A DNA stretch of 39,177 nucleotides from Ignavibacteriales bacterium. Lineage in GTDB: Bacteria > Bacteroidota > Ignavibacteria > Ignavibacteriales > Ignavibacteriaceae. The position numbers and the translations under genes are program-made. How positions within the stretch are numbered: the first letter of the stretch is position 1; each line of letters opens with the position of its first letter. The stretch covers positions 74,556 through 113,732 of the forward strand of contig JAAYVN010000041.1 of NCBI GenBank assembly GCA_012517155.1, in the 5' to 3' direction. The notes beneath the pieces are model-generated. The model had not been told where the DNA came from and searched no databases. It worked only from the letters and a program-made list of their open reading frames with translations. Below, piece by piece: positions 2,751 through 8,470 of this stretch.

Positions 2751-3662
2751 TCAGAAAGCATTAAATCCTAAACTGATGAGATGAACTGCTCCGAAATCGC
2801 CGTATAAATTATACGCATAATTGAGCATGAAGTTTTTATAGAATAATCCGAATCCGGCCGTTAATCCACCTAATCCTTCAATGTCTTTTTGACCGGTATT
2901 ATATCCCAACCTTAATGCAAAATATTCAATTATTCTATATTCTCCGCCAAGATTAAACTTGATATCGCTGTCATTTGGTAAATCTCCGGAAGCTGTAAAC
3001 AATAATCCTTCCATAGCATGGTAAGCCAAACCCGCTGAAATAATCATTGGCAGAGAGCTGGAAACAGAATCATACTTTAATCCGGTACCGATATTCCTAA
3101 CAGCCAAACCAAAATCTATTCCGTCATAAGTATAGAATCCGCCAATATCGAGTGCAAATGCAGAGGCGGATTTTTCGGCGAGAGTTTCAAAAACTCCCTT
3201 AAAAGTAACTCCGGCACTCAATTCAGGCATAAATTTTCTGCTGTAACTTAGATGAAATCCAATATCTGAATTTGTAAAAGTTCCGGTTTTTATAAACCCT
3301 ACCGGTGCGGCTTCTGTTCTTGTCATCTCTCCGGAATTGAAGTAGGAAACACCTGCTCCGATTACACCAATTCCGTAAGGAATAGCAATACCAATATATC
3401 CTGTTTTCATCTCCTCATAAATGGATGAAAAAGTTAATACCATATCTGTAGATTTAATTCCAATAACAGAAGCGGGATTATAATATATGCAGCTTGCATC
3501 TCCCGAAAGAGCAACTCCAGAATGTCCTAAAGCAGCAGTTCTTGCATTTGTGCTCAATTTCAAGAATGTACCTGAGGAAGTTCCTGCATTATCATTTTGT
3601 GCAAACACAAAACCATAAAATAGGAATGTCATTAAAACAATTATTACTGATATCGTTTTCAT
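2751..3662 (-). CDS. PorV/PorQ-family outer-membrane beta-barrel protein
   Basis: The protein has 303 residues. A signal peptide (1-21, ending VFAQ) is followed by a repeated amphipathic beta-strand pattern. The N-terminal signature of the PorV/PorQ (UPF0164) family is visible: FLKLSTNARTAALGHSGVA near residues 33-51, then CIYYNPASV near 59. The chain ends NAF, an aromatic C-terminus typical of outer-membrane barrels. In type 9 secretion PorV works as an outer-membrane shuttle that receives cargo through its C-terminal domain. The start ATG has AGGAG six bases upstream, just after the stop of a large secreted protein with such a C-terminal domain. That placement suggests, but does not prove, a cargo-specific partner. 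It is not necessarily the main PorV of the genome. Confidence 0.85.
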   Translation of the reverse strand: MKTISVIIVLMTFLFYGFVFAQNDNAGTSSGTFLKLSTNARTAALGHSGVALSGDASCIYYNPASVIGIKSTDMVLTFSSIYEEMKTGYIGIAIPYGIGVIGAGVSYFNSGEMTRTEAAPVGFIKTGTFTNSDIGFHLSYSRKFMPELSAGVTFKGVFETLAEKSASAFALDIGGFYTYDGIDFGLAVRNIGTGLKYDSVSSSLPMIISAGLAYHAMEGLLFTASGDLPNDSDIKFNLGGEYRIIEYFALRLGYNTGQKDIEGLGGLTAGFGLFYKNFMLNYAYNLYGDFGAVHLISLGFNAF

Positions 3663-3676
3663 TTTAAACTCCTAAT

Positions 3677-6600
3677 TTATCGTATAACTGTAAACTTACC
3701 AATTGATTTATGCTCTTCACCGTCAGGATCAGTATAGTAAATAATATACAGATATGTTCCGCTTGCAATTTCCTTACCTGCGTTATTTTTTCCGTCCCAT
3801 GAAACTTCATTATAACCTTCCTGCGTTACCGTTTTTTCGGGAGGTATTTCAATTATGAAATCTCCGGCAATGTTAAATACTTTTATTGAGAGATTACCCC
3901 CCGTTGTACCTAATACATAAGTAAATCTCATTCCTCCGGTAGGTAATGAAGAATGTGGGAATGGGTTCGGATAAGTAAACAGTTCTTTTATTGAGCCTTC
4001 TGTGGGTGGCTTAATACCAACGTTAAACGTCCAGTTATAAAACTTCAATAATGCCTGTCCTGCAGAATCCTTTACGCTGGTAGTAATTGTTACTGTATAG
4101 AATGAATCAATAGCTAACGGTTTATTTGGAGTAAGAGTAGCCATCTTCTTTGTATCATCATAAGCTACAGTTGCACTGATTTTCTGATTACTGCTTTCTG
4201 TTATGTAAAATGTTGTAGAGTCAATTGTATTTTTTCGCATTTGATTAGAGAATACGACACTTACGACAACCTCAGGCGGAATGTATTTCTCGCCATCCTC
4301 AGGATACATCGATAAAACCACAGGAATAGTGCTTGTTTCAAAGTCAGTAAAAAGATAATCAGTAGTCGTTGTATAAGCATGTGATAGATAATCGTTTATG
4401 GATGTATTTGACGTATTATAAACCTGCAAATCTTCTAACTTATATGGACTATTCATTCTATAAGCATATATTATTTTTCCGTCAAATCTTAACTCAACTC
4501 TATTAGTCCCAACTTGAAAAGTCCTTGTATTTGATGCCCAGGTCAGTTCGTTTCCCAGTGAATCTGTTAGCTTTCCGTTAATTGCATAGCTGCCTGCTGT
4601 TTTTGTATCAATTTCAATAGTAATACCTAAGTAATCATATTTACCATTGTTGTTCCCGTCAATACCGGAGTCCGAATACGAACCCGTATAACTGATGGCA
4701 CCAATTGAATCACTTCCCGAAATAAAAACTCCCTCATATGTACTTGCAAGTTTCATATTATCAACTGAGGTTAAACCGGTAGTAATAACAATATTATAAA
4801 CCGTTTCTTTTTTCAAAGAACTGTTTGGAGTAAAGGTAATGCCTTTATTTGTAGAATTATACTTATATACTCCGGGAACCTGTGTTTGAGATTGATTTTC
4901 AATAAGTTTAATATTTGTTAAATTCATAGTGGACGTATTTATACTCTTATTAAACCTTATTTCAATATCGTCGTTAATCGGAAAATTGCTTGAACCTCCG
5001 TCAGGATGTATTGAATTTATTTCCAAATCCGCACTATCATTTTCAGTCGTAAAACTCCAGCTAAAGTCAGAAGAGAGAGTATTACCAAGTACATCTGTAA
5101 TTCCACTCTTTATAACAACATTATATGTTTTATTCGATTCAAGAAAACTATACGGAACAAATCTGATTGTTCTCGAAATCGGGAAATAAACTACATTTCC
5201 AGGAATATTAGTACTTGAATTACTTACCCTGACATACATACTGTTATTATTTATAACGCCGGAATTTAATGCAGTTGGGAACGTTGCTTCAATATTGGTT
5301 TTTACTGAAACATTTAGCTCATTTTTTGCAGGGACAAGAAATTGTAACCCAATACCGTTATTAACTACAATACTAACTTCTTTATGAACCGTAGTCAGAC
5401 CGTCGGTAGCAGAAAGTTTTATCTTGTAATTCTTACTTGAAGTTAGTTGATTACTTTTAACGGAAATTGATGTTCCTTCATAATTGGCTAACAATGATTG
5501 CCAGGTTGTGCCGTTATCGCTTGACAATGATACCCTGTACAATAACTTATCACCATCCCCATCTGAACCCGTCCAACTTAAGGTTTTGACAGAGCTGCCG
5601 CTCCATGTTGTACCGTTTGTTGGAGCAGTTATATTAATTACCGGAGCCTGACTTGATTTTTTCACTTCTTTAAGAAGAGTGGAACCTTTGTAAATCCTAA
5701 GCATACCGAAATTATTTGGAGTTGGAACTACAATTGAAAAAGAGTATATAGTGTCATCTGTTGCATCCTCGGTAACTAAAGTGTAGGATTTGAAATCATA
5801 AGACAAAAGCTCCGTACCGGTTGGAGTATATAGCTTTAAAGTAAGATCCCCCCCATTAGGGTATGAATTTGCTTCATAATTATCATTCTCCCAAACAGGA
5901 GTAAGATAAAACTTATTATTCAAATCATATCCACCGGAGATTATAAGGTGAGGCCCTGCTGCATAATTAATCTTATTAAGTGCTGCTGCAAGTACGTTAT
6001 CGTACAACTCATTATAATCATAATCGCAAATCCATCTCTCCTTTTCAGGTTTAATAGTAATCGACATCAAACTAAGTAATTTATCAGCCTCCTCATTTCC
6101 TTCATCAGTGGATTTGTTTTTCTTCTTAGTTACCCAAAATCCCTGAGTAGCCATTTCATCGGTAGTATGTTTGTTACCTCCGTGCATCTTTGAACTAATG
6201 CTGAAATTATGCCCAAATTCATGAATAACGGTTGTAGAATTTGCCCCCATACCTTCAACACCACCGTCATCTCTAAGTAAAATCATCTTCCTTCCGTCAG
6301 AGAAAGTACTTGAAACCCCGGTATAACTCCTTTCACCGGTCCAGCCATCTTCTACACTTCTTTGTCCAAAATCATCAGAAATCAGTCCGATAAAAGCAAC
6401 TCCTTCGCCCTTATTAGTGAAAGCATCGCTGTTTACTAAAATATATTTAACAGTGTCACGAAATGGTCTAACACTCTCAATAGGTTGACTACCCGTATAA
6501 TCAGCCGCTTTAGGCCATGAATAGTTTTGCAGAGGTGTTTTAACATCAATATCTGCTCCTTTAGTAAACTCAATATCCTTCACCGGAAACATATCTCTGA

Positions 6601-8005
6601 ACAACTCTTTACATCTGGTCATCAGATTTTCCATTCTAGTTTTAGCTACATAATTAACACTATCAGCCCAGCTTTCAGCAAGAATAAAATGATAAACGAT
6701 TTTAAGAGTCTTTTGATTTTCTCTTAAATCAATATTTGCTGTTTCTTTAAATGTAACGGGAGTTGAACCCCCCTGGTTTTCAGGCTCAAGGGAAAGTTCA
6801 ACTGTCTTATTTCCCGTTGCAATAGTTGACCAGTTCGTATAGAGATTAGTAGTATTTGTTCCGTTTTTCTTATTCTCGGCTGTTTCTCTTTTATCTTTTC
6901 GGAAATATGTTTCGCTCTCTTCCAAAACAGCTGTAGTTCCCTCTTTAAGAGTTGTTTTTACATCTATATTTTCGAATTGGGCACTTGGATGTACATTTGC
7001 TTTTTTATCCCACTTATCGGTGTAAACCCTGATTACTGCATCCTTTTCTTTAATCTGCTTTTTATTCCTAACTACCTGAATAGGAACCAGTTTATCTTTA
7101 TTAATTTCCAGATCAGGAACAGTTGAGAAATTAAAGCTCCTTGAACTCTCCATTATTCCGCCTTCCGCACTCTGAACACCGCTCAAACCACCGGTAACCC
7201 AAAGCGAATATTTAACTCCATCCATTAAATCTGCATTCGGCTTAATTGTTACCTCCTTTTTATTTGCACTCAGAGCAAATGTACAGGGAACAATTGAATA
7301 ACCGCTATTATTGTTGAAATACTTTATAGCAAAATTTGCGGAGGATACGGAAGCTGGATTAAGTTCGGCATTAAACTTAACTCGTATATCAGGGTTTTTG
7401 AAATTAATCAGTTTAAACTGACCTGGTATAAATTCGGTAATTTCAAGTTCTCCATCAGCTCTGATAGATCCCCAATCAACTGTTACACACCATCCGGCAA
7501 GATTTACATCTATATATACAACCACTTCGTTTTTTCCAGGTGATTGTTTTGTACCCCCAATTATATCAGCAGGAGAAAGTGTGAAGCTATTAATGCTCCA
7601 TTGATTGTTTGCACCATGAAGTGTACCGACTACCTTACCATTAAACCTTACTACATCCACTTCACCGCTTGATTCATCAACATCCCAAACGCTCATAATC
7701 AGTTTCAGATTTTTTAGTTTCAGCGGGTCAACATCAATAAAAATCGGGAATCTGATTTCGGATTTTTTATTCGTACATAAAGGACCATAATAAACATCCA
7801 AATCATAACCCGAAGAAGTTTTCCACTCAATAAAGTTATCATTTAGTTTGTCAGGTTGCTCCGGTCTGATTAAGTATGAGGGTATATCCTCAGGTCGATA
7901 ATTAGAAAATCTTTCTAATTCTGCGTCCGATTGGTTAGACTGAGGGAAAATATTGATTGAAATATACAGTAGAATAAAGATTAGAAGTTTGAAATATCTA
8001 TTCAT
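3677..8005 (-). CDS. Very large secreted protein: HExxH metalloprotease-like domain, four Ig-like modules and a C-terminal sorting-type domain
   Basis: The start is placed at the ATG at 8005 because GGAG lies 6 nt upstream; ATGs at 8017 and 8008 are alternatives. This gives 1442 residues. Order of parts: signal peptide 1-22 (ending NIFPQ); a beta-sandwich module about 60-190; a Big_5-type Ig-like module about 190-296; a putative zinc protease region about 440-690 with HEFGH at 595-599; an Ig-like module about 786-880; Big_5 modules about 889-990 and 991-1096; a DSGIDGNNNGKYDYLG module about 1102-1222; a fourth Big_5 module about 1228-1333; and a C-terminal domain starting YPNPF at 1344 and ending KSIGKFTVIR, like FlgD-Ig/type 9 sorting domains. 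The metzincin spacing HExxHxxGxxH is not met. The nearest downstream histidines are H608 and H613, so the third zinc ligand is unclear. Substrate unknown. Confidence 0.85.
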   Translation of the reverse strand: MNRYFKLLIFILLYISINIFPQSNQSDAELERFSNYRPEDIPSYLIRPEQPDKLNDNFIEWKTSSGYDLDVYYGPLCTNKKSEIRFPIFIDVDPLKLKNLKLIMSVWDVDESSGEVDVVRFNGKVVGTLHGANNQWSINSFTLSPADIIGGTKQSPGKNEVVVYIDVNLAGWCVTVDWGSIRADGELEITEFIPGQFKLINFKNPDIRVKFNAELNPASVSSANFAIKYFNNNSGYSIVPCTFALSANKKEVTIKPNADLMDGVKYSLWVTGGLSGVQSAEGGIMESSRSFNFSTVPDLEINKDKLVPIQVVRNKKQIKEKDAVIRVYTDKWDKKANVHPSAQFENIDVKTTLKEGTTAVLEESETYFRKDKRETAENKKNGTNTTNLYTNWSTIATGNKTVELSLEPENQGGSTPVTFKETANIDLRENQKTLKIVYHFILAESWADSVNYVAKTRMENLMTRCKELFRDMFPVKDIEFTKGADIDVKTPLQNYSWPKAADYTGSQPIESVRPFRDTVKYILVNSDAFTNKGEGVAFIGLISDDFGQRSVEDGWTGERSYTGVSSTFSDGRKMILLRDDGGVEGMGANSTTVIHEFGHNFSISSKMHGGNKHTTDEMATQGFWVTKKKNKSTDEGNEEADKLLSLMSITIKPEKERWICDYDYNELYDNVLAAALNKINYAAGPHLIISGGYDLNNKFYLTPVWENDNYEANSYPNGGDLTLKLYTPTGTELLSYDFKSYTLVTEDATDDTIYSFSIVVPTPNNFGMLRIYKGSTLLKEVKKSSQAPVINITAPTNGTTWSGSSVKTLSWTGSDGDGDKLLYRVSLSSDNGTTWQSLLANYEGTSISVKSNQLTSSKNYKIKLSATDGLTTVHKEVSIVVNNGIGLQFLVPAKNELNVSVKTNIEATFPTALNSGVINNNSMYVRVSNSSTNIPGNVVYFPISRTIRFVPYSFLESNKTYNVVIKSGITDVLGNTLSSDFSWSFTTENDSADLEINSIHPDGGSSNFPINDDIEIRFNKSINTSTMNLTNIKLIENQSQTQVPGVYKYNSTNKGITFTPNSSLKKETVYNIVITTGLTSVDNMKLASTYEGVFISGSDSIGAISYTGSYSDSGIDGNNNGKYDYLGITIEIDTKTAGSYAINGKLTDSLGNELTWASNTRTFQVGTNRVELRFDGKIIYAYRMNSPYKLEDLQVYNTSNTSINDYLSHAYTTTTDYLFTDFETSTIPVVLSMYPEDGEKYIPPEVVVSVVFSNQMRKNTIDSTTFYITESSNQKISATVAYDDTKKMATLTPNKPLAIDSFYTVTITTSVKDSAGQALLKFYNWTFNVGIKPPTEGSIKELFTYPNPFPHSSLPTGGMRFTYVLGTTGGNLSIKVFNIAGDFIIEIPPEKTVTQEGYNEVSWDGKNNAGKEIASGTYLYIIYYTDPDGEEHKSIGKFTVIR

Positions 8006-8072
8006 CATCGACTCCATTTCTCAGATAATATCCCGGATTCCGGAAAAATCTGAATTTAATGATAAAAGAATG

Positions 8073-8355: not shown

Positions 8356-8371
8356 TATATTTGGTTATAAT
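8356..8371 (+). promoter_or_regulatory. Candidate promoter elements for tRNA-Arg and tadA
   Basis: TATATTTG at 8356-8363 fits the Bacteroidetes TAnnTTTG element exactly, and a perfect TATAAT lies at 8366-8371. Either would place the transcript start 10-20 nt before the tRNA at 8389. No convincing upstream element was found for either, so which one is used is open. Confidence 0.4.
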
Positions 8372-8388
8372 TTTTTATCAGTATATCT

Positions 8389-8462
8389 GCACCCGTAGCT
8401 CAACTGGACAGAGCATCTGACTTCGGATCAGAGGGTTGAGGGTTCGAATCCTTCCGGGTGTA
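8389..8462 (+). tRNA. tRNA-Arg, anticodon TCG
   Basis: A full cloverleaf can be folded. The acceptor stem GCACCCG (8389-8395) pairs with CGGGTGT (8455-8461), including one G-U pair at the first position. The D arm is GCTC/GAGC. The anticodon stem TCTGA/TCAGA encloses the loop CTTCGGA, with anticodon TCG at 8423-8425. The T arm GAGGG/CCTTC encloses TTCGAAT. The discriminator base is A8462, and CCA is not encoded. UCG reads CGA and possibly other CGN codons. tadA begins 8 nt after the tRNA, so the two probably share a transcript. Confidence 0.95.
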
Positions 8463-8470
8463 CAATATCT

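Follow-up and report, generated by a model that had tools for sequence, protein, structure and literature searches.

Several arrangements are known in which the C-terminal tail of a protein exported by the type IX secretion system (T9SS) is served by a barrel of the outer membrane. In the T9SS attachment complex, anchoring has been described for PorU by PorV and for PorZ by PorQ (PMC5562754), a tail protein being held in each case by a PorV/PorQ-family barrel while its tail stays uncut (PMC5562754, PMC10202324). According to PMC12618676, PorV recognises every type A tail, and private shuttles of the PorP/SprF family serve type B cargo, with the cognate barrel gene directly downstream, as in SprB/SprF and Fjoh_3952/3951; downstream pairing of type B cargo with PorP/SprF barrels is also reported in PMC9143113. 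Cognate PorV-like barrels have furthermore been hypothesized to shield tails from cleavage (PMC10202324), and further PorU/PorV-type pairs are not a wholly new idea, because NCBIfam already holds models for a 'putative' second sortase-type protein, PorU2 (NF052324), and a 'putative' second PorV-type protein, PorV2 (NF052325). No description of PorV-family cargo/barrel pairs of the kind considered here was found in searches of open-licence papers. The pair in question lies in a 39,177-nt stretch of an Ignavibacteriales genome (contig JAAYVN010000041.1, positions 74,556 to 113,732; hereafter the window), and consists of a gene for a secreted protein of 1442 residues followed by a gene for a PorV/PorQ-family barrel. 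We assign a probability of roughly 0.6 to the interpretation that the two form a co-inherited module, in which the barrel would capture a PorU/PorZ-like tail and retain the cargo, a metzincin-like protease with a stretched zinc motif, uncut as a surface anchor.

The adjacency of a 1442-residue HExxH protein and a PorV/PorQ-family barrel had been reported in a preliminary description of the window and is upheld, both genes being read on the minus strand, although the gap is 14 nt (3663-3676) rather than the 15 nt given there. The reading frame of the cargo spans 3677-8017, and the ATG at 8005 was taken as the start. Whole-length homologs were found in two other genomes, here G239 (1492 residues, 37% identical to the window protein) and G548 (1387 residues, 36% identical). 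The only relative among named genomes was L017 (JAVBYH010000415.1, Bacteroidota bacterium), with 51% identity over the compared region; its contig stops inside the gene, and an assembly termed G700 appears to be the same genome, the contig number and the open frame being the same. Since the 3' neighbour is thus unreadable in L017, the recurrence is scored as three of three readable genomes, belonging to three families: a PorV-family gene follows directly in the window, starts 8 nt past the cargo in G239, and lies 35 nt past it in G548 when the start of the open reading frame is used. Consequently, the pairing is not unique to this genome, a point that the preliminary description had left for a survey.

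The window barrel passes the PorV/PorQ family model NF033709 (161 bits, cut-off 90) as well as Pfam PorV (35.3 bits, cut-off 27), and the partner barrels in G239 and G548 pass NF033709 with 149.9 and 149.6 bits. It is neither PorV proper (NF033710, 81.5 bits, cut-off 250) nor PorQ proper (NF033711, 112.8 bits, cut-off 220), and PorV2 is matched only weakly, far below its cut-off (49.7 bits of 325). A tree was built for 40 proteins of the PorV family drawn from four genomes; in it the three partners form one clade with 100/100 support and the other 37 proteins lie outside. The tree comprised 14 loci from the window's genome (one below cut-off) and 26 from G239, G548 and G700, where 31 loci pass the cut-off; four of the 31 and one misassigned row (G700_L076) were omitted, the G239 partner was trimmed to 340 residues, and placements elsewhere in the tree are partly unsure owing to long branches. 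By sequence, the partners in the window, G239 and G548 are orthologs, distinct from the sampled paralogs. The G239 partner (L033:3567-4844) is extended at its C-terminus by about 100 residues of SPOR-like appearance, judged by eye, and this extension may tie that barrel to peptidoglycan.

Compared with the described systems, the locus resembles PorU-PorV in that PorU and PorV likewise adjoin in this genome, and both PorU and PorZ seem, by sequence, to share with its cargo a similar longer stretch in the tail. It differs in that the cargo is metalloprotease-like rather than a sortase or a lipopolysaccharide carrier, and in that the barrel lies outside the PorU-linked PorV clade. No C25 peptidase match was found in the cargo, a further difference from PorU2. 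The downstream position of the cognate barrel is shared with type B cargo, yet there the barrel belongs to the PorP/SprF family, and the window tail falls short of type B CHU_C (PF13585, 24.5 bits, cut-off 27) with no TIGR04131 match at E≤1.

The arrangement is not confined to the window pair within its own genome, where SprA (1025 bits) is also present. Thirteen PorV-family loci score above cut-off, one of them only with its neighbour in frame; nine lie directly behind a protein with the paired type of tail, and a tenth tail protein precedes a sub-cut-off PorV-like gene, itself ahead of another above-cut-off one. One of these ten pairs is the standard PorU-PorV (PorU, 1017.7 bits), and the window module looks like one member of a set of about ten. 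Six of the ten (L040, L042, L043, L044, L046 and L047) are three-gene cassettes of a TonB-receptor-type protein, a tail protein and a PorV-family barrel; the first gene encodes a protein with a TonB-receptor plug and/or an outer-membrane barrel, and with carboxypeptidase-regulatory domains, and the tail proteins (683-1207 residues) have no Pfam domain except a weak FlgD_ig. These cassettes look like a recurring type of surface complex. At L048:10387-12352, a tandem pair of PorV-like genes stands behind a single tail protein of 537 residues.

The sorting-type C-terminal domain attributed to the cargo in the preliminary description was borne out by Pfam FlgD_ig (29 bits, cut-off 27); neither CHU_C nor the type A model TIGR04183 is passed, the latter giving no match at E≤1 (cut-off 23 bits). 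A paired-tail model was built from 14 tails of the three other genomes; the G239 and G548 orthologs of the window tail were excluded. All ten paired tails of the window's genome score 12.9 to 78.5 bits higher with this model than with one for type A tails, and both excluded orthologs likewise score higher with it. Conversely, none of 40 type A tails, sampled from at least 150 places in the genome, scores higher with the paired-tail model; 20 of the 40 took no part in building the type A model. The proteins upstream of two barrel loci that lack such a tail (C33 and C156) do not score higher with the paired-tail model either.

The two classes also differ in spacing. Twelve residues separate the strand-5 aromatic from the GxY motif in 10/10 paired tails of this genome and, by the counting rule used, in 11/16 from the other genomes, and in type A tails the same stretch has 7 residues in 34/40 and 12 in 0/40. 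The remaining five other-genome tails gave 5, 6, 9, 9 and 11 because the counting rule halted at another aromatic; by eye they have 12, a recount that was applied to other-genome tails only and was left out of the totals. In the comparison of PMC11285876, PorU and PorZ, whose tails remain uncut, have an extra hairpin after strand 5 that four other tails lack, and the longer stretch may, by sequence, correspond to this hairpin. At E≤0.01, four of the paired tails in the window's genome match the PorZ model at its C-terminal end and three match that end of the PorU model, one tail being counted under both, with neither matched by the C91a and C15 tails; the G548 ortholog matches PorU positions 995-1094 (E 1.2e-5). 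Taken together, the sequences suggest that the paired tails are distinct from the common type A tails and of a PorU/PorZ-like type. Two further proteins of the genome, L102 (C120) and L103 (C98), have tails that by eye strongly resemble that of PorU and that also fall with the paired class in the model comparison; none of the PorV-family loci identified lies on their contigs.

Tail and barrel similarity are correlated over 26 pairs (rho 0.55), a value reached by none of 5000 within-genome re-pairings. With the metzincin and PorU-type pairs excluded, the remaining 20 pairs give rho 0.548, reached by 3 of 5000. The earlier proposal that the cargo has an outer-membrane partner of its own thus gains support from the recurrence of the pair, the orthology of the barrels and this agreement between tails and barrels.

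A number of observations weigh against the proposed module. The best cross-genome match agrees for tail and barrel in only 15 of the 26 pairs, and the whole-length family is rare (four of 391 class genomes, the window's own included). In the window's genome, three loci have no such tail protein directly upstream: C33 follows a TonB receptor, C156 a ferrochelatase, and C154 has no upstream open reading frame within 250 nt. Of the 31 above-cut-off PorV loci in G239, G548 and G700, 27 were examined and only 16 gave a usable tail of the paired class; a seventeenth (L093) was unused owing to an overlap limit in the script, nine, of which some lie at contig ends, gave no tail that could be used, and in G239 the tail upstream of locus L086 is type A-like. 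Tails of this kind also occur without a PorV neighbour, since 4 of 20 FlgD_ig places, sampled from 92, score with the paired class, and 8 of the 16 that remain once four duplicates of sampled type A tails are removed show the 12-residue stretch. The window tail itself matches neither the PorU nor the PorZ model at E≤1, and the G239 ortholog tail matches neither at E≤0.01, only FlgD models. The classes are not absolute either, because PorU's own tail passes TIGR04183 (27.7, cut-off 23) and three other paired tails touch it below cut-off. P. gingivalis RgpB given the PorZ hairpin is still cleaved (PMC11285876). Finally, two AlphaFold2 runs with L017 as the sole homolog were unusable, with mean predicted local distance difference test (pLDDT) values of 37.4 and 36.5.

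The route envisaged for the cargo begins with Sec export, for which a signal peptide was assigned by eye only, followed by passage through the type IX system, a step that rests on the presence of SprA and PorU-PorV in the genome. The C-terminal domain would then be taken up by the barrel encoded directly downstream, and the tail would probably stay uncut, so that the barrel serves as a lasting surface anchor, by analogy with PorV for PorU and PorQ for PorZ (PMC5562754, PMC10202324). Binding and retention are what we infer from this analogy; capture with uncut retention appears to be the most economical reading. Its main rival is that the barrel acts transiently, as a dedicated shuttle that collects the cargo at SprA and hands it to PorU, the tail being cut and the protein released or attached. 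PorV does precisely this for type A cargo (PMC5562754), and the RgpB experiment indicates that the hairpin alone does not protect RgpB from being cut. Nevertheless, the genome has no fewer than 150 type A tails and just 13 PorV-family loci above cut-off, none of which has a type A tail directly upstream apart from PorU's borderline one; private barrels therefore go with the other tail class, several members of which resemble the PorU and PorZ tails that stay uncut. We regard a shuttle as rather unlikely.

The barrel could also be a mere neighbour, a channel of the FadL type that might carry protease products, with the cargo relying on the standard PorV. Such a function would fit a weak Toluene_X/FadL similarity (12.6 bits, cut-off 29.7) and the TonB-receptor-type proteins of the six cassettes, as uptake loci include them, but the barrel scores far higher as a PorV/PorQ-family member, tail and barrel similarity track across genomes, and the window pair is followed downstream by genes for electron-transfer flavoprotein, not by a TonB receptor. 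A neighbouring channel is accordingly judged improbable. The features of the pair are compiled below.

Table 1. Features of the cargo/barrel pair, in window coordinates.
Feature	Position	Strand	Basis
Cargo: large secreted protein, 1442 residues	3677..8005	-	Open reading frame; whole-length homologs in G239 and G548
Gap of 14 nt with AGGAG, preceding the barrel gene	3663..3676	-	Sequence reading
PorV/PorQ-family outer-membrane barrel (partner), 303 residues	2751..3662	-	NF033709, 161 bits; clade with G239 and G548 partners
Metzincin-like region, residues 432-687	5945..6712	-	Homolog alignments; limits set by eye
HEFGH, residues 595-599 (two putative zinc histidines and putative catalytic glutamate)	6209..6223	-	H, E, G, H invariant in homologs
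H613, candidate third zinc ligand (HT motif)	6167..6169	-	Invariant in window, L017, G239, G548
H608, earlier candidate ligand	6182..6184	-	F in L017, hence not conserved
M647, predicted Met-turn (SLM)	6065..6067	-	Invariant in homolog alignments
C-terminal sorting domain, residues 1339-1442, ending GKFTVIR	3680..3991	-	FlgD_ig; conserved YPNPFPH and FTVIR; paired-tail class score
12-residue stretch between W1403 and G1416 (usually 7 in type A tails)	3761..3796	-	Tail spacing count

The cargo, of which a metzincin-like protease would be the displayed part, contains four Big_5 stretches (Pfam) and a single HExxH motif, HEFGH. No Pfam peptidase family passes its cut-off in the protein, the best being Reprolysin_3 (E 0.044), and the exact metzincin spacing HExxHxxGxxH/D is absent, as the preliminary description had observed, with serine at the canonical position of the third ligand. 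That description had considered H608, which does give HExxH-x8-H, as the third ligand and the family as unclear and possibly new. H608 was rejected, being phenylalanine in L017 and aligned to no histidine in G239 or G548. A new peptidase fold is likewise unsupported, because the homologs, among them distant ones with HExxHxxxxxH, retain metzincin landmarks including the Met-turn. A profile from eight family members gave 66 matches at E≤1 against PDB sequences, the best with E only 0.043; the best 60 of the 66 are metzincins by name except for one M3B peptidase. The single-sequence search of the PDB returned two matches (best E 0.47), neither a metallopeptidase. The peptidase is thus probably metzincin-like and not of a new kind.

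The canonical third-histidine position is S in the window, T in L017 and I in G239; the G548 homolog has the canonical HEMGHAWTLGH and an SLM Met-turn. A histidine followed by T is invariant in all four, corresponding to H613 (HExxH-x13-H) in the window. Its distance from HExxH is 13, 13, 25 and 5 residues in the window, L017, G239 and G548, respectively, and its distance to the methionine of the Met-turn is 33, 33, 34 and 33. The turn, predicted from sequence, reads SLM in these four and in G237, and LM or IM in G291 and G451. The motif is probably stretched to HExxH-x13-H with H613 as the third ligand, since H613 is conserved at a near-constant distance from the Met-turn that matches the normal third histidine of G548, and the most straightforward interpretation places an insertion ahead of the same ligand, 8 residues long in the window and L017 and 20 in G239, relative to G548. 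Leishmanolysin (M8) likewise combines HExxH, a Met-turn and an insertion that lies ahead of the third histidine, after the turn that precedes it, and that measures 62 residues according to PMC9321319; its insertion is far longer, and the window protein has no Pfam M8 match at E≤1. H595, H599 and the displaced H613 would accordingly bind zinc, with E596 as the catalytic base and M647 in the Met-turn; zinc binding and activity are what we infer from this conservation. The genes, their recurrence and orthology, the tail class and the conserved residues can themselves be read directly from the sequences.

Loss of activity, with the domain serving as a binding module, would agree with the S, T or I at the canonical position and with the failure of every Pfam peptidase family to pass its cut-off. 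It appears doubtful, since the glutamate and the two histidines of HExxH are all retained, neither H613 nor the Met-turn varies and the spacing between them is near-constant, and leishmanolysin has an insertion at the same place (PMC9321319). Alternatively, a conserved acidic residue could replace H613 as the third ligand, for example E635 of an EGN motif, which is shared by the window, L017, G239 and G237. As E635 is not kept in G548, with its normal third histidine, and the HT histidine holds its Met-turn distance in all four proteins, this substitution is considered quite unlikely.

A sample of 395 genomes from the phylum gave five matches to the large protein (the window's genome, G239 strongly, and G237, G291 and G451 weakly), and 391 genomes from the class gave ten (the window's genome, G239, G548, G700 and the weaker G014, G028, G453, G457, G486 and G494). 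The last four match only past the zinc motif and were set aside; G014 and G028 were retained and treated as a subgroup of relatives. A single-sequence search of 97 genomes of the family and order, the window's own included, matched only the protein itself, and the later profile showed that G014 and G028, both of the family, also carry a related domain. Of 149 relatives of G239 searched, three matched (G239 itself, G453 and G457), and among viral contigs 180 pattern matches included no relative. The distant relatives G291 (three copies), G451 and G237 have HExxHxxxxxH and an LM or IM Met-turn; the G451 protein falls just short of Peptidase_M66 (19.6, cut-off 20.6). G014 and G028, of the same family as the window, have HExxHxxGLRD. 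The G014 tail passes Por_Secre_tail (41.8, cut-off 27), the G028 tail falls just short of it (26.7) and passes FlgD_ig (34.7, cut-off 27), and, judged from lists of open reading frames, neither genome has a barrel gene directly after the metzincin-like gene. The distant metzincin-like proteins of other phylum members (L034:4706-8629, L035, L036, L037 and L038), that of G451 among them, have PKD or repeated immunoglobulin-like regions.

Upstream of the cargo start, at a distance of about 380 nt, a tRNA-Arg (tcg) lies on the opposite strand at 8389-8463, followed by a deaminase-fold gene that we take to be tadA-like; the tRNA is a possible insertion site for the pair. Around the pair only short imperfect direct repeats were found (≤27 nt, 70-88% identical), and an A+T-rich inverted pair (2582-2602 / 8356-8376, 81%) happens to flank both genes. 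The G+C fraction is 0.34-0.37 across the large gene and 0.36 over the whole window.

The proposed stretched zinc motif links an otherwise unnamed peptidase to the metzincins. With about ten natural PorV-family pairs in one genome and more in three others, the hypothesis that cognate barrels protect tails becomes directly testable, and the matched sets of tails and barrels could be used for reading the recognition code. We tentatively suggest, at somewhat less than even odds, that deep-branching Bacteroidota may possess a third arm of type IX cargo in addition to type A/PorV and type B/PorP-SprF, in which each of some ten proteins per genome, with a PorU/PorZ-like uncut tail, would be permanently displayed on a PorV-family barrel of its own; PorU-PorV would then be a specialised case of an arrangement older than itself.

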